DNA of 64,000 bases from Argopecten irradians (Eukaryota > Mollusca > Bivalvia > Pectinida > Pectinidae). Numbering within the stretch: the first letter of the stretch is position 1; each line of letters starts with the position of its first letter. The DNA is taken from NCBI RefSeq assembly GCF_041381155.1, contig NC_091135.1, positions 8,671,620-8,735,619 of the forward strand, read 5' to 3'. This document shows, in pieces, positions 6,401-46,384 of the stretch. Below the pieces are notes generated by a model that worked only from the letters and a program-made list of their open reading frames with translations, did no database searches and was not told the DNA's origin. A program made the position numbers and the translations under genes.

Positions 6401-9400
6401 ATGTGATTTGCAGCATATTTGTAATGCATGTTTTGGGAGACTGCGGTATAAAAAAAATCTGTCCTAATGAAAGTTGGGGTATATACATGTATACGTAGTT
6501 GCCATCAATTTGACCTGTCCATAAGTGTTTATACAATACAGAAACTATATGAAATTCTGAGTCCTTATATATTCATATACCAGTATCTATAATTTCTTAT
6601 GCTTATTTATCATTTTTAGTTGCAAATTTCCTGGTTATATTTTCTTCATCCCTGTTATTTCAGCATTGGTTGTCATATGGCCAAAAACAAATGTCTGTTT
6701 AGGGTTACATTGCCAAAAAATATAGAGTCAGTAAGTCAGGATTTGTTTTTTGTGTCTTTCACTGTAAAGTAATTGCCAGAACTGGAGTCTAAGATCAAAA
6801 TCCTGACTTTTAATTTTTTTCATAGAAAAGTGGGAAAAAAATAAGGGTCGGGGTAAAAAATTAGGGTTGGTCATGTAACCCTACATAGACATATATTATT
6901 TTTGGCCCAATTTTGAGATGCATTAGTGTGTAACATACACTGTCTGGGTGTTCTTCACATGCATGACATCCAACGGTGCATGCTAAAAAAGCTAAACCTG
7001 TGTCTATTCAAATTATCTTGAGTTTGATAAACATGATAAAACAACCGGCACTAGATCGGGAATTATATTTCTATAATGTACTTACCGTAGAAAGCCATCC
7101 TAATCCATTTGGCCACTTATCTTTACCATTTGGGTCTCCTTTGTATACCTCAATTGGTGATCGGTCACCATGTCGATATACCTGCAAAACATTCATGATC
7201 AAAAGTACAAATTAAAGTTTCACATATTATACATGTACAACCATTCAAATGCTATGTGTGGGTATATATGTACAATTATTATATGACTGGTGTATTTGCT
7301 GTATTTTGATAGGCCGATACGTTTCTCGGAAGTATTCATCAACTGCGATATCAACCCCGAAATCGGTGGCGAAAAGCATGCGAGGTTACTGGACTCAGTC
7401 CAGATACCTCTTGCGAGTCCAGTAACCTGTGTCAAAAATAGATTGAGGGAAACTCCCTTTAGATGTGATGTTATAATCACTTTTGACGTCGATTCGTACC
7501 CATATATAGCGTAACAGGAGTTTCCTTATTCAATGACGTCAGGATAATCTATTGTGACGTCATTATTATAGTTGGCAACATATATGGCGGAAGGCAGCAA
7601 GTTTACTGCGATCAATGGTGATCAACTGCGAACTTCAATTTATGGAAAACGTTCATAAATGCCAGATGGGCAGTTGATGCAGTGATAAAATATTCCAGTT
7701 CTGCCAGTCTAAAACATTAGCAAGAAACATTTGGATATTTACCATATACTACATGTAATGGATAAACTACTTTTGTGAAGAGAACATTTGCAAATATCAT
7801 CCTGTTTTTTGTAGTAAAGTCTTTTTGAATAGGCGGGTTAATATCATATAAATGTCGTATAATAAAACAATTATTGACCTATTTTCAGGTGGATACGATG
7901 AGTTAACAACCCTCGAAAATGATATAACCCTGGCCTCTGGCCTCGGGATATATCACTTACTCGGGTTGATAACTCATCGTATCCACCTGAAAATAGGTCG
8001 ATAATTGTATAATATATATACTGACTATATTTATATATCTAAACTAAATTAATATTGTATACATTATAAAAGGCCCACTACCTTTCTGAAACAGCTTTTA
8101 ATTTTTAAAATTGGAATGTAAAATGTATGAGATCTATAGTTTTGTAGAGTCACAAAAGTTATTAACTTACCTTTAATACTTCACTAATATCATTATCTTC
8201 TGAACAATTTAATTAAAATCAATAAAATGTTAATTTTCATAACAGCACCAGACAGCAAAACAGCGAAATGAATTTCCACATTTATCATATATTACGCAGG
8301 GAATCTGGCAAATGTTTGGTGTTGTTACCTCATCTTGGCCATTGATATGTATATTTTCTTATGTTTTTAAGAAACCTTTAAATTTTGCTCCAGAAAGGTT
8401 GTGGGCCTTTAATAATGTAACAGGATTACAAGGTAACCTATATATGTCCTCCAAACACTAGCCAGGTGCTTTATATCATACCAATTGATCATATCAGCAA
8501 ATGTACCTTCATAGTCAGCGAAGATTGCCCTATCCAATATGCCAGTACAATTCATCAACACTCATTCTAACACATATATTTAAGCATTAAACTTTCTCCC
8601 TATCGTCTCATCTCTAATCTGCATCAAATGTCTAATCATCTCATTATGTGCTAGCGTAAGAACACATTATGAGGATTGTCTGCAAAGCTCAGGCATCTAT
8701 ATAGACCATAGATGCCATAGGAAGTTAGTTTAATGCTTATATTTACTTTATCAACTCATTTTAGGGTCTCTGCATTAATATTGTTTAAGTTAGACCAGGA
8801 AAACTGTTTATCAACGACAAAATAATCCCCAAGATGGATTGCTCTTTATAGCAAGCAGTTAAGTGATAAACCACCTTCCAATATAATCAGTTGACCAAAA
8901 ACGGAACATCTGTTATGGAAATGAAAATTTTTCCTTCTTTTATGTGGATTTCCTTCTCAAATGTAGGTTTTGGGGCAGGATAGGGTGTGAATATATGACT
9001 AAAAAATAAACAAAAATTTGGCTCTGTTATTTCCATAAATTGAACTTTTTAACAGTGCATAATTAATGGTTACTGAAACATCTGGCTGCGCCCTTTAAGG
9101 CCTTGCCTTCAGTCATATTATTATATTAATAACACCATTTCTATTATACATGCACATTTCATTTTTGTTACACTGATCAAGTTTCTACGCATGTAAACAA
9201 TTTTTAATTTAACCTGTACATTATTTTGATATGCTTTTCATCAGATAAACCACACAAGCCCTTGGCATTCACAGCTAATAGCGACCTATATAATCATACC
9301 ACCCCTGCACTTTCTCTGACCATCTGTCAGAAATATTTCATCTATCATCCAGCGCTATGTCTGTTGATCGTCACAGTTTTTAATAGCCACTGACTAAAGG

Positions 9401-19488: not shown

Positions 19489-22400
19489 ATGTGTGGTATT
19501 TGGGCAGTATTCGGTAGTGATGACGACATAGCGGCTCAATGCAATGCCGCACACAAGATTGGCCACAGAGGTCCAGATGCCTTCCGAATTGAGAGTATCA
19601 ACCATTTTCCTTCGTGTTGTCTCGGATTTCACAGACTTGCGATTGTAGATGACTTGCAAGGAATGCAACCTATGCGGGTATTCAAACATCCACATATATG
19701 GCTGATATACAACGGCGAAATCTACAACCATCAATTGGTAATTTATAGATATATCTCAATAAATAATCACATTACAAGCGCGTTCGTTACAGATTGGTGC
19801 ATTTGTCATTACGATTATCATTATTCTCTTGTTATCTTAATCAAGCCAAATACATTATAGCATGCCAAACCGTCCTTTGTCTAATCCATCTCTACCCCTG
19901 TACATTATTTGTATATTCCGGCATAATTGTACATATATGCATTGTAATATATTTCTTCATGTATAGATGGCATAATGCAAATCTGATATGGTAACATGTC
20001 TACATTGGCCAAATATGTCGGGCCATTGACATCCAGTTTTTACTCTACATGAAATGTTTTTTTTATCACTAACGCAATATCTAAATCTTTTCAAACATCC
20101 ATTGATACTACTCTCTTAAAGATTGTATGAAAAAATCATATGTAAATGGTTATATATCTGATCATTGTTTCATTATTGTTAGCCAATACACACTATACTC
20201 AACGACTACATTTTACCCACAGCTGAAGGAACAGTTCGACTTCCATTACGCCACCCAATGTGATGGCGAATCCATCATCCATCTCTACGCACAAGGCGGG
20301 ATAGAGTTCGCGGCCAGTCAGTTGGATGGAGTGTTTGCCTTTTGTCTTCTGGATACAGCCAACCGGAAAGTGTACCTCGGCAGAGACACATTTGGGGTCA
20401 GACCCTCATTTCGACTTACTACCGAAAGTGGGTTCCTAGCCGTATGCTCAGAGGCAAAAGGTACAGCAATCAGCTTTGTATGGTTTACCAATCGATATAA
20501 TGAAGTAAAATAACTTTTGTAAGAACCTTCTGTTCTTAAAACAAACTTACCAATATCCTCCATGTGTTTAAAAAGCAACGCATCCAAAGATATTGTATAC
20601 ATTCAATCAAGGACGCACTTATAAATCCTTGAGTCAATAGAGACTAATACACACTTTAAGCTGATGGAAAGAAAACCTGATTTTATTTCATAGTTTTGGT
20701 ACATGAATATGTCTAAAAATAGATCTGCGGAAAAACGGAATAGAACAAAATAATCAAAGCAATTGACATCATTCGCCTCATCGACGACTCCTGCCCTATA
20801 TATATCTGCCAAATCTTCAAGAGAGACATTGATCGTGACCAAATATAAATACTAGTAATATATATAAATTATTAAAGCATCTTGGAGGAAAAGGGTCAAC
20901 TAACGCTATTGTTATTTTAGGACTTATGTCCATGATGGAAGACAAAACAACATCGACCCTCGAACCATTCCTCCCCGGTCATGTTGAGACGTACGATCTG
21001 GATTCAATTGGACGGGCGACCTTTGTGGAGCGGACGAGGTTCCACAAAATAGGAGATGCTCCTCTATATAAAACAGTGGCTAACCCTATAGGTAAGACGG
21101 CTACAAATACACGAGTCTTACAAATCAAACAATAACAGCAATTAACGAAATCAGGAAGTGTTTCTCTCCAATTCTAATAGTAGAAATATAACAGTATAAA
21201 ACTCTTTAAATATAAAAGAACTCATATTTATTGTGCAGTCGGTTGTATCTAATACTGGGGTTTCGAGATAACAAAATGACGTGGGTCATCTATAATTTAT
21301 CGTCGATTAGTCCATGTGACGTCATAATCACAACAAAATATGACGTCACAATCACCAGAAGGTGGGACTAATCGACAGAAAATCGTACTTCACGAACGTC
21401 GTTTTGGTATCTAGAAATAAATGTATTTAAAGCATCACTTGTTAATGAAAAGTAAAATTTTTAGTAAAACACTATTTGTGGGTGTTAAGAGAAGCCCTAA
21501 AGCATTTACCCGTTAAGGGTAATGAAGTTTGTTGATAAACGCATATAAATGAATATGTTTCTTTCGTATTCTTGAGATGTTGAGTGATTTTTTATCTTAC
21601 AGATAATGACATTAAGGCAAGCATTAGAACGCTATTTGAGGGCGCAGTCAGCAAAAGGATGATGGCTGACCGACGTATCGGATGTCTTCTCTCAGGTTCG
21701 TCCAAGTATTATTCTGTAATACTTACATGTACACGTAACCGAGGTTTTTCACTCAAAATAGTCGTAATTAATATTCGATAGAAGTATTGATATTAATATT
21801 CGTATTCCCGAATAAATTCATATAATATGTTTACATGATATTTTATGATTTAAAAAACAAAAACTATACCAAAAATTACCATTCTTCGAAAAATATTAAA
21901 TATGTCATCATGTACAAAATGAACAGTAAACTAACATATATTTTATCTTTTTATTGCAGGCGGTCTAGATTCTAGTTTGGTCGCATCGACATTAGTCAAA
22001 TTAGCCAAAGAGCGAGGCATTCCCTACCCTGTTCAGACATTCTCAATTGGTATGGAGGGCAGTCCAGACCTTCTGGCAGCTAGAAAGGTAACGACAACAT
22101 GATTGAATATACCATATATTGTAAAGACTTCATTGTGGTCATTTAGATAAACAATAGATAATGTAATCTACAAATGTAATGTAAAATATGATGAGTAGTT
22201 TCCAAAGAGGTCCAAGGTAGGGATTGCTTGAAAATAAACACAATGCTAGAAAGATAACTCCCAAATGCATGGCTATTATGCTAGACCAGTAAGTTTTTTT
22301 TATCATAATTTGAATATTTTATAAGAACAAAATGTATAAGTTATGTTAATACCAATATGGAGCAATATGAATGCCACTGTATCTTTTGTTTCAAGTAGCG

Positions 22401-30229: not shown

Positions 30230-31345
30230 TAATTGCCCCGTGTGACGTATTTTTTTTGGCTCTCTGGTAACACTTAACTATATTGTTTTCATTACCCAAA
30301 CTAGCATAGTATATGTGATTAGCATACTGACAGCATACAAGAACTACATACAAGTATAATTTGTAATCATTCAAAAGTATCTACGTAATTGATTGGCGTA
30401 TATGATGAGTGATTTCGGTCTATTTTATAATCTATCTAAAGACTATAAAATCTGTATGGTCCATGTAACCTGAATGAAATACATATCTTTCTTTCATACC
30501 TACGGGTTTAATACTGGGTGGTCTACGGTAATACACTCATGCCGCCTGAGGCTATATTACAAGGCTACGCATACAATAAAGCCTCGTGACGTCACGGCGT
30601 CAACAAAATTTCTATTTCCTCGGTAAAATTTTAACATTTTTTTCACAAATTTGACTGGTTTTACTATAAAATATGCAAACAACGGAATTTTTGTTGAAAA
30701 TATCACATATTTTCCATGTATAAAGATTGACCTTCAGCAGTTGATTTCTTCGAATTTATTTCAAAATGGCGGGATATTATAGTTGTAAAATTGCAATAAA
30801 ACGTCGAGCTAAGGAAGAAAAATACTCTTTCATAAGTTGATATGAAGCATAGGGATATTCTACCCGCGGGATCACAAAATGTTGCAAAACCCTCGGCAAG
30901 CCTCGGGTTTAACTACATTTTGTGACCCTCGGCTAGAATCTCCCTATCCTTCATATCCGCTTATGAAAGAGTCTTATATAATTCTCCCTCCTCAGCTTGC
31001 AAATTATTTCGTCCCCGTCAAGAATTTAGAGGTATTTTGATTGGTCAATCGGTAATAATACCTCATGGGATGTTGTCAGATCGTCCATGAAACAAAGCGA
31101 GAATATTAAAGGATCTGTATTTTAATGTAAAATTTGTAGGTCTTACTTTTAAATTAGTATTGCGTATGCTGGTGTAAATTGTTTCATTGATTACCAGTAA
31201 AGATACTAATATGTTTAAGTAATGACAATAAAATAGATGATGCATCATAATTATACCATTTATCATTTATATTTATTGTTTTTTTAAGTTTTATCCCTAA
31301 ATGGGTTAATAAAATGTTATGATGTAACATCTGCAACTACTACAT
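30230..31345. other. Spacer with foldback hairpin at 30825-30971
   Basis: The hairpin has arms of about 60 bp (CTCTTTCATAAGTTGATATG and its inverse at the right) around a CCTCGGCAAGCCTCGGG centre. Otherwise AT-rich, no gene seen. Confidence 0.7.
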
Positions 31346-34300
31346 TAGGCCATGGGCTAGGAGGGTCCCACATGCACCCCCCCCAAACCTCCGAACCAAT
31401 ATTTTTCTTAACCCTTATGACCCACTGATCACAAATCAAAATGTTAACATTGCATAAGTTGGGATGAACTTCCGGTTATGACGTCATCAAGATGGCCGCC
31501 ATCTCAAATTTCACTACAAAATAAAAAATAGTCATAACATTGACATTTCTCAACCGAAGTAGACAAATGAGGCATCAAAATGACCAAAATAGAACACTAA
31601 AAACATATCAGGACCAAATAACCAAATATATGTAGTGATTTTTACGCAGGAAGTGAAAAAATAGGATTTTAAGCTCAAAAATGGTAATTTTTTAGTAAAT
31701 TTTTCATATTTTGATTGACGCAACAAAAACGTTTTCCAACCGCAAACTATTATTTCTAATTAGTTTTTTGTCCACTTATAAATCAGTTTAAACAAAAACA
31801 AGAAAAAAACCAATGTTAACATTATATAAGTTCCGGTTATGACGTCATCAATATGGCCACCATCACGAATTTCACTAAAAAAATGAAAAATATTCATAAC
31901 ATTGACATTTTTCAACTGAAGTAGACAAATGAGGTATCAAAATGACCACAATAAAACAACAAATACATATCAGGACCAAATCATCCAATATATGTAGCGA
32001 TTTGTACGTAGGAAATGAAAAAATAAGATTTTAAGCTCAAAAATGGTAATTTTTCAGCAAACTTTTCATATTTGTCTTCATGCAGCAAAAATGTTTCCCA
32101 ACAATTATTATTGATCGTAATCAGTTATTTAATCTCTTGTCAATCAGTAAAAACAACAACAAAATATATAGATATGCAAAAGAGAATTATTGTTATACCA
32201 TCATTTGGTTTACAAAGCATCACGGTTTGCGTATACAGGTCATATGATAGTGTATTTTTCCCAAACCGCCGAGACTACAGTTTCCTGGTGTCTTAGAATT
32301 TCCTGAATATAATAGTGGCTATTGAAAATTTAAATCTTAACAAAGAATTTTAGGTTGGCTGAATATCTAAGTGGGACTTCAAAATAATTCACTTTCATGT
32401 TCGAAATGTTGTACACTAGTAGCGTCTCAAACTGAATTATAACTGCAAAATGCCAACTAATAGCTATATGGTATCAAATTAAAACTGAGGTAATTCTGTC
32501 ATACCGTAAATACCATGACACTTTCCGAAACGTTTTGTGCCTTTTAGAATGAGCACATCCAGTATTATTTCCTGTGTATAACGTCAGGAAATGTCAGATG
32601 GTTACTTAACAGTGTCACATATTTCTTTCACTAGTTCTTTGTCTTCGATAGCGATGAGCTGATGAGCTGATGTGACATTACATTACCGGGTTGCCATCGT
32701 GGTTGTAGCTTGTCAACCGTCCATGGCCAGAGTTAACATAAGAAACATCAGTGACAGGGATGTAGGAGCTCTTCCTGTTTCCAACCTAGTGATTCAAATA
32801 TCGTATATGATGTTCCAGACTATCAGATCCCCATTCTGCGAAGGTTTGGGCTGGTTCTCCTTATTTCGTATGAAGCACAATTCCTCAATCTTGTGAACCT
32901 TCAGTGACCATAGATGGCACAGGTGGATTCTTTGAGGTCATAAATGAGGTCTGCAGTGAAGTTCCACTATTTGCCAAGTCTGAAAAGCACTGTAGAAAAT
33001 TTTATTTCTGGAGAGTCTTCAATGGTCTCTTTACGCATACACCAGATGTGACACAACCAGCACCTTCAAGGGAGTGGGAAAAGTCAGACCAATGAAAAAC
33101 ATTTAACATTAATGGCCTCATTAATGACCTCGATGATATCACCTGTGCCATTTATGGGCGCACGAGGGTCCACTAGATTAATGAATGGTACTTCAAATTA
33201 TGGAGCTATGTGCTAAGGAGAACCAATTCCACCATTCGAATAATGTGGATCTGGTGCAGTTTCCATTATGCCGAAGAAGTCTGGAACAGTATATACGATA
33301 TGTTAGAATCTGAGGGAGATCCCACATCTCTGAACCTATTGTTCCTGATATGAACTCTGGCCAAGGATGGGTTATGAAAGATGACAGGCTAGAACAACAC
33401 TGGTAATGTACTGTCACATCAGCTCATCGACATTGAAGATAACGCTATGGCTTTCGACGAATTTGATACTGATATCTCGATTATTCTGATAATTTGGACT
33501 ACCAGCTACCAGACATGCCGAGTCTCTTCAGTGGATGGAGCAGTGAGTCGAGAAAGCACGTACAATGATAATGGTTATCATAAAGAACCAGTGAAAGAAA
33601 TATGTGACACTGTAGTAACCATCTAACATTTTGCCTATGCTATGCATAGGAAATAAACAATGAATGTTCTCATTTTCAAAGACACAAACGTTCTGAAAAA
33701 TGATATAAAGAGAAACACAGGCTTAGGTTACATTTGTTACTCTATCAGTAGGTGTTGTGCTGTAATAATTATTTCTGAGACGCTGGTCAGCGTCAGCGGT
33801 TTCGAGTTCGAAAAATAGCATATGCCCATTATACGCACCTGGTGATGTTTTGTAAACCTAATGAGGGTATAACAATAATTATCTTTTGCATTTCTATATA
33901 TTTTAATTTTTGTTGGTGTTTTCATTGATTTATTGATTTATAAGAGATCAAATAACTGATTACGAATAATGATTTGTTGTTGGGAAACATTTTTGCTGCA
34001 TGAAGACAAATATGAAAAATTTGCTGAAAAATTACCATTTTTGAGTTTAAAATCTTATTTTTTCATTTCCTACGTACAAATTGCTACATATATTGGATGT
34101 TTTGGTCCTGATATGTACTTGTTGTTCTATTGTGGTCATTTTGATACCTCATTTGTCTATTTAAGTTGAAAAATGTCAATGTTATGAATATTTTTCATTT
34201 TTAGTGAAATTCGTGATGGCGGCCATCTTGATGACGTCATAACCGGAACTTATTCAATGTTAACATTGTTTTTTTTCTTGTTTTTGTTTAAACTGATTTA

Positions 34301-34735
34301 TAAGTGGACAAAAAACTAATTAGAAATAATAGTTTGCGGTTGGAAAACGTTTTTGCTGCGTCAATCAAAATATGAAATTTTTTCTAAAAAATTACCATTT
34401 TTGAGCTTAAAATCCTATTTTTTCACTTCCTGCGTATAAATCACTACATATATTTGGTTATTTGGTCCTGATATGTTTTAAGTGTTCTATTATGGTCATT
34501 TTGATACCTCATTTGACTACTTCGGTTGAAAAATGTCAATGTTATGACTATTTTTCATTTTTTAGTGAAATTTGAGATGGCGGCCATCTTGATGACGTCA
34601 TAACCGGAAGTTCATCCCAACTTATGCAATGTTAACATTTTGATTTGTTATCAGTGGGTCATAAGGGTTAAGAAAAATATTGGTTCGGAGGTTTGGGGGG
34701 GGGGTGCATGTGGGACCCTCCTAGCCCATGGCCTA
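31346..34735. mobile_element. 3.39-kb palindrome: foldback-type element, arms ~1.6 kb
   Basis: The outer ends TAGGCCATGGGCTAGGAGGG and its exact inverse close the element at 31346 and 34735. The outer ~800 bp of each arm match very closely; inside each are two ~361-bp direct sub-repeats sharing GGTTATGACGTCATC. Inner parts still match as diverged inverted copies: 32586-32643 with about 33583-33620, 32820-32880 with about 33205-33300, 32917-32950 with 33117-33151. The geometric centre is about 33040, with a loop of about 150 bases. CAT flanks both ends (possible 3-bp target duplication). Inner segments look like decayed coding sequence of a family I cannot name. It ends 128 bp before the ASNS-2 ATG. 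Confidence 0.85.
34576..34611. promoter_or_regulatory. Tight YY1-CRE-ETS motif cluster in the palindrome arm
   Basis: GGCGGCCATCTT (YY1-like AAGATGGC on the other strand), TGACGTCA (full CRE) and ACCGGAAGT (ETS/GABP consensus) follow one another within 36 bases. A second, slightly weaker set is 361 bases upstream (34215-34250), and inverted sets lie in the left arm. Whether it drives ASNS-2 is unknown. Confidence 0.45.
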
Positions 34736-34863
34736 CATGTTTATCAACATGAAAATCGCGTATAGGTTTGTGACATCATTTTACTATTCGACAATTACTT
34801 CACTCAGTCACCGCTTCACTTTTATTTAAGACGACATTGTTCCATCAGCATATTGCGACCAAC

Positions 34864-37800
34864 ATGTGTGGTATATGGGCACTTTTCGGGAGTACAGAGG
34901 ATGTGTTCACTTTATGCCACGCAGCCTATAAAATATCCCACCGTGGACCGGATGCCTTTAGACTTGAGACCATTTATCAATTTCCATATTGTTGCTTGGG
35001 ATTTCATCGTCTTGCCATCGTGGATGCCCAACATGGGATGCAACCGATGCGAGTTAACCAACATCCTCATATTTGGCTCATCTATAATGGGGAAATATAT
35101 AACCACAAAGAAGTGAGTATATTGCAAAGATATTTTCCCAAGTGTATTTCGATGGTATATGTATACATGTCTTTTATTTGGACAAAGGTTTTTACACTTT
35201 ACTTACACAGGGGTAGATAGCTTGCACACAAACGCCAATACGGAGGTAAGTCGATTGGTCATGCATTCCAATGCTTGTGACACAACAAAACTCACATCAG
35301 ACGTCACGATCACGGTCTAACTAGTTAACGACAAATCTTACTTTATCTGTGTCGTTTTGGTATCTCGAAACTAACGTACTATATGACATTACGACAATGG
35401 TACCATGGTACATATAGTTATTGTCTTGTTTTTCCTCTTTCATTTCAGTGAAATAAAGCTGATGATAGTCTGAATATTGTCATTATAATTTTTGTTATCT
35501 CTTCCTACAGCTTCAAAAGCAGTTTGACTTTCATTACAATACCCAGTGTGATGGTGAATCCATCATTCATCTGTATGCTCGGGGAGGGATAAAGTTCACG
35601 GCCAGTCATCTGGACGGAGTATTTGCCTTCTGTCTATTGGATACCAACAACCGGAAAGTCTTTCTTGGAAGGGACACATTCGGTGTCAAACCTCTATTTC
35701 GTTTTCTCAATGAAGACGGGTTTTTATCAACATGTTCAGAACTGAAAGGTAAGTGAATATTTTCTGATGTAGTTTTATGTGGTTTCTCTTTGAAATGCAA
35801 ACACAATAGGGGAGTGATCCTTGTCCGACCCCATTTTCACAAATTAAAGACGTTTTTTGCTTCCCCGGTATTAATAGATGTATACTACTTTCATGAAGAT
35901 ATTAAAAAACCATGAAATCAGAGTTCCAGGCTTAAATTTATCTTTGCTTACCTATTGAACATAGAATAAGAGCTGTTGTGCTCAATACTGCAATACATAT
36001 AATCGTTTTGTAAAAAAAAATTCCAAATAGAGGGAACATTTGACGTTCGTCATTACAAAAGCATACTTGAAATGCCTTCATATATGTAACTAGACAGTAA
36101 CATTTGTAAGTTATAGAGAAGTTGTATTGCATAAAAAAATATTATCTTGATTATACAGTAACAACATATGTGGTTTTGTTTACAATACATCTGTCACAAT
36201 ATTTCTAATTTACTACGCGCATAAAATATACATTATATCGCTGTCAGAATTTAAATTATGAAATCACGCTATAAAAAGCGAATTACGGAGACATCGTGTT
36301 ATCACTAGATGCGTCTTTCGAGTCCAATTGACATATGAAACCATATGTTAATATTCGCAAAGTATATATTATATATTTTCATGGGAATATTAACTATTAA
36401 ATTGATCAGTGATATGTATATATTGATAAGTTAATAACATGATCAATTATCGAAATGTATAGTCCTCGAGTCGCCGATATCACAGTGGAGTTATTGAATT
36501 TCGCAATTTTCTGTTTTAAAAAGCTTCGTGGAAGAATTTACCGCGCGCTGTCACTTAATTACAGTCATACGAATAAGCAGTTTTTTTGACATTCGTTCTG
36601 TTTATTCGCCAGTATTTTAGTTCGCGGATAATAACGCGACCGCGAATAAAATTAATCCTCGCAAATAAATTTACCATGCAGTAAGTATACATGTATATGC
36701 GGCATCAATCTTGTTATCTACTACACGTAAGCAGTATTTATGACGCGCAATATATTTCATAAGTGATGGTTACCCAATTATCTACAATTAATTGGGGAAA
36801 TGTCTTATGGTATAAACATTTTGAGAAAAGTTTACAAACGATATCGCTTGTTTTCCAATAGTTGGACAAAAATCATTTAGTATAAAAAACGCCTACAAAT
36901 AATTTCAAATTTTAAATTGAAGATGATTTGGAATATATGACTCAATCATGACTTATATTGTGTAATTTCAGGATTGATGGATGTAATTGGTCACAATTCA
37001 AAAGACCGTATTCAACCTGTCTTGCCTGGCCATGTGGAGACCTATTCACTGGACAGCAAATGTCGGGTCTCATACGATGGTTTGACCCAGTTCCATGCGA
37101 TTGGTGATATCCCATTTTATGCAACTGTTACACTACTAGGTATGGTCGATTAATCGCACTATTTAACACCAATAACAATTACATATACTGTTCTAAACCA
37201 TCTTATTTTCACGCCGGTATTTGACTTCGCGAATACCATTGCACGAAGCTTAACATTTAATTGCTTCGATTTCTTTTCATAGGTGTCGCATATTAAAATA
37301 TATCAGGGGTTACTTCCCATAACTTAAATCCTTCAATGCAATGAAATAGCATGCAGGAATCAAAATGGAGTTATATATGTTTCTACTCTACCCAATCGAA
37401 ATACGCAAAAATAATCGCACTCGAAACGGAGCTTGCTTACGGAAACTGATACACAGCCAATTATTTTTGTGTTTTATTTATCTCTGAATTTTGCCATTTT
37501 TTTTATTACAGATGATGATGAAAAAACAGGAATAAAAACCTATCTAACGAGTGCGGTTGATAAGAGGATGATGGCTGACCGTCGTATCGGTTGTCTTCTG
37601 TCGGGTTTGTGATTTAAATAATTTAAACGTACATATTTCGCGACAGCAATATTTTAGCGCCCTTTGCGCGACAAGTGATGCACTGAACTATTCATACGTA
37701 TGGATGCGCTAATTTGATTTACCGTTTATCGTTTATGTAACAAGGATGCGCTGAACTGTTCAAGATCGATTATTTGCTAAAATTTTATTCCGCTTTTGTT

Positions 37801-42290: not shown

Positions 42291-42833
42291 ACCAAGACAT
42301 GTATGAGAGTTACAAATAAATCCAGAAATGTATAAGGATATCAATGAAATGTATGAGAGGTTACAATAACCAAGAAATGTATGAGAGGTTTACAAATAAC
42401 AATCAAGGAATGTATGAGAGGATATAAATAAAATCAGAAATTATGAGAGGTTACAATAACAATCAAGAAATGTATGAGAGGTTACAATAACAATCAAGAA
42501 ATGTATGAGAGTTACCAATAACAATCAAGAAATGTATGAGAGGTTACTAATAACAACCAAGAAATGTATGAGAGGTTACTAATAACAATCAAGAAATGTA
42601 TGAGAGGTTACCAATAACAATCAAGAAATGTATGAGAGGTTACCAATAACAACCAAGAAATGTATGAGAAGTTACCAATAACAACCAAGAAATGTATGAG
42701 AAGTTACCAATAACAACCAAGAAATGTATGAGAAGTTACCAATAACAACCAAGAAATGTATGAGAAGTTACCAATAACAATTAAGGAATGTATGAGAGGT
42801 TAATAATAACAACCAAGAAATGTATGAGAGGCT
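42291..42833. repeat. 32-bp minisatellite, about 17 copies
   Basis: The unit is CAAGAAATGTATGAGAAGTT plus ACCAATAACAAC. Copies in the left third vary in length and sequence; the centre is regular. Confidence 0.9.
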
Positions 42834-43097
42834 AGCATCTTTTACTACCTTGATAGGTAACAAATGTAAGTAGAGAACTATGCAGTTCCTATCTAAATAG
42901 TTCGTATATTAAAATTAGTGTTCTTGGTACGATTACCTGGGTAAATAAAAATCTTGACCATATTTCACTTGTTTGGACTAGCAACGCATCTACAAACTAT
43001 ATACTCATTATATATTATGCAATTTGTACATAAGAGAAGCTATATTTCTGTTCAGATAAAGGAAAATATACAAGAAAAAAATCCATTTCGCATGAAT

Positions 43098-43670
43098 ATA
43101 AAGGGCTAAGCAAGAAGGTTCCCAGAAATACGAAACATATAAAGGGCTAAGCAAGAAGGTTCTCAGAAATACGAAACATATAAAGGGCTAAGCAAGAAGG
43201 TTCCCAGAAATACGAAACATATAAAGGGCTAAGCAAGAAGGTTCCCAGAAATACGAAACATATAAAGGGCTAAGCAAGAAGGTTCCCAGAAATACGAAAC
43301 ATATAAAGGGCTAAGCAAGAAGGTTCTCAGAAATACGAAACATATAAAGGGCTAAGCAAGAAGGTTCTCAGAAATACGAAACATATAAAGGGCTAAGCAA
43401 GAAGGTTCCCAGAAATACGAAACATATAAAGGGCTAAGCAAGAAGGTTCCCAGAAATACGAAACATATAAAGGGCTAAGCAAGAAGGTTCCCAGAAATAC
43501 GAAACATATAAAGGGCTAAGCAAGAAGGTTCCCAGAAATACGAAACATATAAAGGGCTAAGCAAGAAGGTTCCCAGAAATACGAAACATATAAAGGGCTA
43601 AGCAAGAAGGTTCCCAGAAATACGAAACATATAAAGGGCTAAGCAAGAAGGTTCCCAGAAATACGAAACA
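43098..43670. repeat. 41-bp minisatellite, 14 highly uniform copies
   Basis: The unit contains AAAGGGCTAAGCAAGAAGG then TTC(C/T)CAGAAATACGAAACAT. Almost the only variation is TTCCCAG versus TTCTCAG, so the array is young or kept uniform. There are no spacers, so it is not CRISPR-like. Confidence 0.95.
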
Positions 43671-44479: not shown

Positions 44480-45120
44480 TTAACACTAATGATATAATTA
44501 TAAAAAAATCATATCGACGGACAGACATAAGACAAATACCCTAGTGTAAAATTAAAGATTACTTAGACACTACTTATAATGTTTTGTTGATCAATGCCAC
44601 ATAAAATATTTTGGTATATATTTATAATGGAAGATATGAAAAAAACAGAGCTGGAAGTACCACATCAGGGCATTAAAACATTTCTCATAGAAATAAACAA
44701 AAATATATATTTCAAAATGGTACATGTATAGTGTTTATGAACCTTCTAACCGGCCGAGCTTACTTATCATAGGAACCCAAGAATTCAATTGTAAACTAAA
44801 TTTACATTGAAAAACAATATACATATCTATTATATATTTGAAATTTTCAAATACCGATAGTCAATTCGACCTATTGGTGACATGTTAACAATCCTGACAA
44901 GAGGCCCAAAGGGCCTTAACGGTCATCTGACTACCTTTGCAATAGTAAAATTAATTATATATGTTGTCACTTTGTCAGGACCACATCAGGATCATTTTCA
45001 ATTTCTTTCAACAAATTTTATTTCAAACAAGAGGCCCAAGGGCCTTAACATATAAGAAATTAATTAGATATAGTGTCATGGTAGCCATCTTAGATTTGTG
45101 ATCAACCAGAGATGTAACAA

Positions 45121-46372
45121 TACTTTGTCGGGACCATGTCAGGATCATTTCATGCAAGTTTCAGCCAAATCGCACCGGTAGAACTTGAGAAGAGGTTCAA
45201 AATGTGTTTTCAAGATGGCGGCTGTGGCGGCCATCTTGGATTTCGGATCGACCCGAAAAATAACAACACTTTGTCGGGACCATGTCAGGATCATTTGATG
45301 CAAGTTTCAGCCAAATCGCACCGGTAGAACTTGAGAAGAAGTTCAAAATGTGTTTTCAAGATGGCGGCTGTGGCGGCCATCTTGGATTTTGGATTGATCC
45401 GAAAAATAACAACACTTTATCAGGACCATGTCAGGATCATTTCATGCAAGTTTCAGTCACATCCCACCTGTAGAACTTGAGGAGAAGTTCAAAATGTGTT
45501 TTCAAGATGGCGGCTGTGGCGGCCATCTTGGATTTCGGATCGACTCGAAAAATAACAACACTTTATCAGGACCATATCAGGATCATTTCATGCAAGTTTC
45601 AGTCAAATCCCACCTGTAGAACTTGAGGAGAAGTTCAAAATGTGTTTTCAAGATGGCGGCTGTGGCGGCCATCTTGGATTTGGGATCGACCCGAAAAATA
45701 ACAACACTTTGTCGGGACCATGTCAGGATCATTTGATGCAAGTTTCAGCCAAATCGCACTGGTAGAACTTGAGAAGAAGTTCAAAATGTGTTTTCAAGAT
45801 GGCGGCTGTGGCGGCCATCTTGGATTTCGGATTGATCCGAAAAATAACAACACTTCATCAGGACCATGTCAGGATCATTTCATGCAAGTTTCAGTCAAAT
45901 CCCACCTGTAGAACTTGAGGAGAAGTTCAAAATGTGTTTTCAAGATGGCGGCTGTGGCGGCCATCTTGGATTTCGGATCGACCCGAAAAATAACAACACT
46001 TTGTCGGGACCATGTCAGGATCATTTGATGCAAGTTTCAGCCAAATCGCACTGGTAGAACTTGAGAAGAAGTTCAAAATGTGTTTTCAAGATGGCGGCTG
46101 TGGCGGCCATCTTGGATTTCGGATCGACCCGAAAAATAACAACACTTTGTCGGTACCATGTCAGGATCATTTGATGCAAGTTTCAGCCAAATCGCACCTG
46201 TAGAACTTGAGAAGAAGTTCAAAATGTGTTTTCAAGATGGCGGCTGTGGCGGCCATCTTGGATTTCGGATCGACCCAAAAAATAACAACACTTTGTCAGG
46301 TTCATGTCAGGATCTTTTCATGCCAGTTTCAGCCAAATCGCACTGGTAGAACTTGAGAAGAAGTTCAAAATG
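45121..46372. repeat. 146-bp tandem array, nine units (last partial)
   Basis: Unit starts recur exactly every 146 bases (about 45136, 45282, ... 46304). Two sub-types alternate irregularly, AAATCGCAC versus AAATCCCACCTG. The complete units each contain CAAGATGGCGGC facing GGCGGCCATCTTG. Because 146 is not a multiple of three, the 63-aa frames seen in each unit do not join and are not genes. Confidence 0.95.
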
Positions 46373-46384
46373 TGAAAAGTTAAC

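Follow-up and report, generated by a model that had tools for sequence, protein, structure and literature searches.

The palindrome at positions 31346-34735 of the window (the whole 64,000-nucleotide stretch of Argopecten irradians contig NC_091135.1 analysed here) is, with a probability of about 0.85, a non-autonomous DNA transposon of foldback type that makes a 3-bp target duplication and whose outer arms have been copied onto each other. It belongs to a repeated family with three subfamilies of one plan (A, B and C, the third represented by one copy). The outer and inner arms of the same copies yield opposite trees, and concerted evolution within a single transposon can be read from them as a clean natural record. 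Why the arms of long-armed elements stay alike (through binding sites, post-excision repair or recombination) is thereby testable by sequence alone.

An earlier note on this DNA had described the whole element as a single inverted duplication, and arm alignment confirms its limits to the base: the element spans 3390 bp and belongs to subfamily A (Table 1), its 39-bp tips are perfect inverted repeats, and inward of the tips the arms share stretches of 505 bp and 226 bp, each at 96% identity. The outer arms had been called far more alike than the inner ones, as indeed they are, with 94-99% identity per 100 alignment columns over the outer ~790-800 bp and 67-97% over the alignable columns of the inner arms, which contain large gaps. 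Diverged as they are, the inner arms are still colinear, as claimed (alignment score 365 vs. a mean of 56.6, sd 12.8 and maximum of 92.5 for 50 shuffles), and the centre, formerly placed near 33040, falls within a badly paired segment around 33029-33083. The homogenised zone stops ~800 bp from the element ends, where long gaps begin. The 361-bp direct repeat said to be mirrored in each arm was recovered on both sides (starts at 31467 and 31828 on the left, 34191 and 34552 on the right), with two units per arm and four unit blocks in the window copy. If transcribed, such a palindrome would, by its complementarity, give double-stranded RNA.

Table 1. Features of the palindromic element and its immediate surroundings (window positions).
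Feature	Position	Strand	Evidence
Whole palindromic element, subfamily A, 3390 bp	31346-34735		Arm alignment; 17 other sampled A copies 0.966-0.994 identical
Left copy of the 3-bp target duplication, CAT	31343-31345	+	Flank comparison
Right copy of the 3-bp target duplication, CAT	34736-34738	+	Flank comparison
Left terminal inverted repeat tip, TAGGCCATGGGCTAGGAGGGTCCCACATGCACCCCCCCC	31346-31384	+	100% over 39 bp
Right terminal inverted repeat tip	34697-34735	-	100% over 39 bp
Left outer arm (homogenised zone)	31346-32139	+	94-99% identical to right arm; outer-arm tree
Right outer arm (homogenised zone)	33941-34735	-	Arm alignment; outer-arm tree
Left arm, first 361-bp unit	31467-31827	+	Direct-repeat detection
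Left arm, second unit, recognisable part	31828-32104	+	Direct-repeat detection
Right arm, outer 361-bp unit	34252-34612	-	Limits by symmetry with left arm
Right arm, inner unit, recognisable part	33977-34251	-	Direct-repeat detection
Most constant unit block TTCCGGTTATGACGTCATCAAGATGGCC, presumed binding site	31470-31497	+	Sliding-window entropy, 128 units
Second left-arm block, one change	31831-31858	+	Read from sequence; TGACGTCA placed by motif scan
Block, right arm inner unit	34221-34248	-	Read from sequence; TGACGTCA placed by motif scan
Block, right arm outer unit	34582-34609	-	Read from sequence; TGACGTCA placed by motif scan
Left inner arm, tree input; old inverted duplication, not homogenised	32420-33000	+	Arm alignment; inner-arm tree
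Right inner arm, tree input	33090-33790	-	Arm alignment; inner-arm tree
Palindrome centre, poorly paired	33029-33083		Arm alignment; 33040-33083 (44 bp) matches 405 genome places
ASNS-like gene, first coding exon, outside element	34864-35112	+	GATase_6 at 9.6e-9

Searches of the assembly (845.8 Mb in 1508 contigs) for the first 31 bp of the window-type terminus gave 1153 matches at ≤2 mismatches, and those for the 44-bp centre and the unit block gave 405 (≤3 mismatches) and 2666 (≤2 mismatches), the reversed pattern matching nowhere in each case. The ends typical of subfamily C, TAGGCCGGGATCTAGGGGG, matched 287 places at ≤1 mismatch, and several C terminus pairs among the matches listed stand about 3.4 kb apart. 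By arithmetic that assumes two termini per copy, the family comprises ~720 copies, or ~0.3% of the genome. Thirty-two complete copies, the window's included, were assembled from terminus pairs 2.5-3.7 kb apart, and 29 of them measure 3.31-3.41 kb; 18 belong to subfamily A and 14, which are 0.891-0.899 identical to the window copy, to subfamily B, with subfamily C known from one copy read (L060). Loci with one terminus missing, too changed or too distant (L009/L010, L021, L022, L026, L032, L033, L040 and L046) were omitted. Sampling was not random: most A copies were chosen because they resemble the left arm of the window element, B copies because they match its centre exactly. The A and B majorities are identical throughout 33046-33095, but because B copies were chosen by exact match there, and because the same stretch varies in the independently picked L059 and L060 (0.96 and 0.82), no special constraint on the centre is claimed.

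The earlier note had also considered separate ages for an outer and an inner element, one inserted in the other. Arm identity does drop sharply near 800 bp from the ends, as such nesting would have it, but outer and inner parts correspond in the alignment of all 32 A and B copies, and the single C copy, which runs colinear with them for 2.3 kb at 82% identity, has the same outer-inner-inner-outer plan; this reading is therefore highly improbable.

Outside the TAGG...CCTA ends, a 3-bp duplication is present in 22 of the 32 copies, against a chance level of 9% obtained by pairing left and right flanks across different copies. It is CAT in the window copy, TAA or TTA in nine of the 22, and among the others CAT, ATG, AAA, AAC, GTA, CTA, TAC, TAT or ATA; of the ten copies in which the 3-bp match is absent, one has 6 bp and another 4 bp. 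Since L024 and L025 have common flanks, the figure of 22/32 counts one insertion twice, and becomes 21/31 if it is counted once. The flanks of these two loci (on contigs C14 and C7, respectively) are 93-100% alike in opposite orientation, from either a duplicated segment or an insertion within another repeat. In the C copy, L060, TCG flanks the element at either end, as read by eye. Other copies and empty sites were sought in this genome, yielding hundreds of the former and one of the latter: when the flanks of L044 are joined, they match an unbroken sequence inside L042 over 257 bp at 91% identity, and ATA occurs once where the flanks meet. A second pair, the flanks of L035 joined and compared with L058, reached 74% across the junction, with gaps there, and was not counted as an empty site. 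Together, the 3-bp duplications and the one empty site establish the element ends and the duplication length.

Assemblies are known to go wrong at long inverted repeats, and the palindrome might in principle be a fold-back artefact, as the earlier note had cautioned. The arms of the window copy, however, differ by 3.4%, and complete copies with their own flanks (two in common) stand at 31 other places, most of them with target duplications; given also the empty site, an artefact is very unlikely.

The 361-bp unit carries one particularly constant stretch. Entropy was computed over 128 units drawn from 34 sequences. In sliding 20-bp windows it is lowest within the 28-bp block TTCCGGTTATGACGTCATCAAGATGGCC (0.052), which ranks first by this measure only; in fixed 20-bp bins the minimum lies at 31567 (0.093, stretch AAATGAGGCATCAAAATGAC), and the block scores 0.173 and 0.194. 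The first 45 positions of the unit have a mean entropy of 0.168 vs. 0.379 elsewhere, the latter value including the badly aligned last stretch. The block, which resembles ETS, CRE and YY1 sites, is presumably a binding site for transposase or host factors. The sequence TGACGTCA also occurs outside the element, at window positions 1582, 7534/7555, 21317/21341, 30587, 47834 and 57637/57655, three of these sites being pairs whose members lie about 20 bp apart, and near 7555 it is followed by ATGGCGGAAG.

The right end of the element had been placed 128 bp before the start codon of ASNS-2, and 128 bases do separate it from the ATG at 34864 that opens the ASNS-like exon. If the genome is taken to have 30,000 genes, chance alone would put about five of the ~720 copies within the 200 bp before a start codon, and the nearness of the palindrome to ASNS-2 is probably a matter of chance. 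It is conceivable that the palindrome works as the ASNS-2 promoter through ETS-, CRE- and YY1-like sites in the right arm, ~255-640 bp before the start codon, and TGACGTCA is indeed found in two right-arm blocks, at 34593 and 34232. Yet the blocks belong to the element at every location, TGACRTCA is common window-wide (34 strand matches vs. 5.9 expected), and some five copies this near to start codons are expected anyway; a promoter role is accordingly unlikely. As a copy of a widespread mobile element, the palindrome needs no special reason to lie before ASNS-2, which removes a likely false lead for the window.

Other features were recorded in the same neighbourhood. A second ASNS-like first exon lies at 19489-19734, with 74% protein-level identity to the exon at 34864-35112, and contig C6 holds five further ASNS-like matches, of which one contains a stop codon. 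A separate, near-perfect palindrome of ~155 bp (30822-30976), some 370 bp away on the left side of the element, folds as a single hairpin (z -12.8) and is itself repeated: 40 places were scored out of 1566 candidates, and the other 39 are 94-96% alike. At 42340-42831, 43096-43670 and 45084-46374 lie three tandem arrays whose units measure 32, 41 and 146 bp, respectively, the last starting with GCCATCTTGGATTT.

The history of the arms was read from two trees drawn with a midpoint root, each of 63 rows, the right arm of L034 (B) being too short for the outer-arm tree and the right inner arm of L018 (A) too short for the inner-arm tree. The outer arms split by subfamily, with A (18 left, 18 right) separated from B (14 left, 13 right) by a branch supported at 100/100, whereas the inner arms split into left (32) and right (31) across A and B, again at 100/100. 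Since the inner arms divide by side in both subfamilies, the inverted duplication predates the A/B split; since the outer arms divide by subfamily, left together with right, they were made alike after that split. In the C copy the two arms share 96.4% identity across 468 bp, and their likeness to A and B arms is 86-89%. Columns in which left and right majorities differ (55% rule) number nine in A, three of them at the inner boundary, and four in B, all at the inner boundary. Within A the sides are partly re-sorted, an open group uniting 18 right with 4 left arms.

Copying is not the sole way in which outer arms might stay alike, and selection on binding sites at both ends could in theory suffice; the outermost 150 bp, 96-100% alike between A and B, and the very constant unit block are what such selection would leave. 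A and B outer arms, however, differ by 9.3% on average, and left and right arms have subfamily states in common, so that constancy, under which the two arms would not acquire shared new states, is a decidedly improbable substitute for copying.

Within B, the right arms of subgroup B1 group with the left arms of B1 and B2 (99/95), and the right arms of B2 stand apart (100/99). The placement of B1 right arms with left arms implies that the left arm replaced the right in the B1 ancestor, and the pattern is, to judge from the tree, a polarised copying event from left to right. An exchange of arms between different copies, rather than copying within one element, is a possibility to be taken seriously, if still a tentative one: arm sequences are interchangeable, an inverted exchange between copies yields the same B1 pattern, and a reading of this kind has been offered for Galileo (PMC3573991). 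Against this, the B1 right arm belongs to the left-arm lineage of B1 itself, which is most simply a within-element copy.

The timing of copying follows from a comparison of own arms with those of sister copies, made for 29 of the 32 copies in six subgroups (L015, L016 and L047 belong to none). Own-arm and sister-copy similarities were 0.9654 v 0.9653 in A1, 0.9828 v 0.9817 in A2, 0.9780 v 0.9777 in A3, 0.9830 v 0.9800 in B1, 0.9431 v 0.9422 in B2 and 0.9414 v 0.9391 in B3, an excess of 0.0001 to 0.003 that is nearly absent. In subfamily A as a whole, own exceeded other similarity in 10 of 18 copies (means 0.9732 v 0.9712), and in subfamily B in 10 of 14 (0.9627 v 0.9530), where the excess partly reflects subgroups within B. 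Because own arms are hardly closer than the arms of sister copies, copying would have occurred mainly in source lineages, and it looks like an occasional event there and not constant maintenance of every insertion. A few copies pair their own arms in the tree (L038 at 99/90 and, more weakly, L029 at 98/76, L015 at 84/93 and L048 at 89/71), and post-insertion copying may have made a small contribution. The conversion between arms suggested in the earlier note is thus upheld by the opposite trees and the C copy, but as a process that looks mainly past and proper to source lineages.

In B1, arms are as similar between sides (0.980-0.983) as within sides (0.979-0.983), indicating a founder with near-identical arms; in A1 they are less similar between sides (0.965) than within (0.987-0.992), indicating a founder without them. 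That bursts start from founders with freshly copied outer arms, a near-perfect palindrome being a step towards or a condition for renewed transposition, fits B1 but fits A1, whose arms were already different, poorly, and seems rather unlikely. If true, it would mean that inner arms are left to diverge while outer arms are remade.

Under the transposon reading that we prefer, a transposase made elsewhere would mobilise the element, to be inserted with a 3-bp target duplication. The inverted duplication is older than the A/B split, as the trees show, and in source elements the outer arms would since have been copied onto each other, whether by gene conversion or by gap repair and whether inside a single element or from one element to another, the copy tract halting where large gaps separate the arms. 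Transposase or host factors may bind the 28-bp block as well as the terminal ~150 bp.

No family below E 0.3 was found by Pfam in ten inner open frames of the window copy, and none at E up to 1 in a single inner frame from each of L010, L059 and L060, so the sampled copies appear non-autonomous. A transposase-bearing partner was not found among the long or odd copies read. The 15.6-kb terminus pair L009/L010 (C3:49157770-49173370) proved to be a palindrome copy interrupted by ~12 kb with retroelement-like frames, an identity judged by eye. Among the termini listed, fourteen lack the C-run, and five of these were fetched with one other solitary terminus (L049-L054): L049 is a short palindrome of 588 bp, the arm of L054 is cut off after 318 bp, and in L050-L053 the tips pass into other sequence after 15-25 bp. 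Open frames in three of the six contained one TROVE domain and no recognised transposase; the domain (5.2e-14) lies in a 471-aa frame of L051 (2047-3459), a Ro60-like gene ~2 kb from the remnant terminus at 58. The long copies L059, L060 and L061 (the last read over 10,000 of 12,601 bases) were likewise rejected as partners, being copies enlarged by insertions that hold tandem repeats or no recognised genes; the frames of L059 and L061 look similar and repetitive. Termini that diverge after 12 bp occur at 10 places vs. 2 for the reversed pattern, with two words found twice each. The PIF/Harbinger transposase domain DDE_Tnp_4 (PF13359) has at least 151 genome matches; judged by eye, the 21 listed on contigs C1-C2 are all farther than 10 kb from any of the 100 listed termini.

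The features of a foldback element are all present: long inverted repeats form most of its length, direct sub-repeats occur in the arms, and mobility is evident from the duplications and the empty site. Elements of the CMC/EnSpm group have CAC termini, which are absent here, where the ends are TAGGCC. Academ elements make target duplications of 3-4 bp. The profile PF07592, expected to detect the Zator ISAzo13-like transposase, has no match in this genome and equally none in 14 control genomes. Zator is described as making a 3-bp duplication (PMC10045372) and PIF/Harbinger as duplicating TWA (PMC4482050), a target rule from which the family departs, with TAA or TTA in nine of its 22 duplications. 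Zator, Academ and Harbinger relatives resemble the family in their 3-bp or 3-4-bp duplications, and none of the Academ, Zator or PIF/Harbinger transposases could be tied to its TAGGCC ends. Because Academ, Sola and Zator are apparently bivalve-restricted among the molluscs of one survey (PMC10294476), Academ and Zator may be regarded as leads, and nothing further. In the chiefly open-access literature consulted, no described family was recognised as that of the palindrome, and TAGGCC is absent from the eight papers listed out of 82.

Two Drosophila elements offer the closest comparisons. The target duplication of Galileo is 7 bp. Galileo, a member of the P superfamily, has long terminal inverted repeats that are internally repetitive in some subfamilies and shows sequence exchange among copies, similar to the family described here (PMC3573991); it has a P-type transposase, whereas the palindrome family is without a transposase link. 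Tetris of Drosophila virilis is a non-coding foldback element with very long terminal inverted repeats, whose arms likewise consist of an outer flanking part, tandem units and an inner part, and whose autonomous partner was not found either (PMC4079207). The "foldback-like" of the earlier note agrees with this architecture of long arms and sub-repeats, although Tetris makes duplications of 8-10 bp, as against 3 bp here, and only three structurally complete copies of it were found, as against hundreds; its tandem units measure ~220 bp, as against two 361-bp units per arm here. For both Galileo and Tetris, the tandem repeats have been proposed to be transposase binding sites (PMC3573991, PMC4079207).
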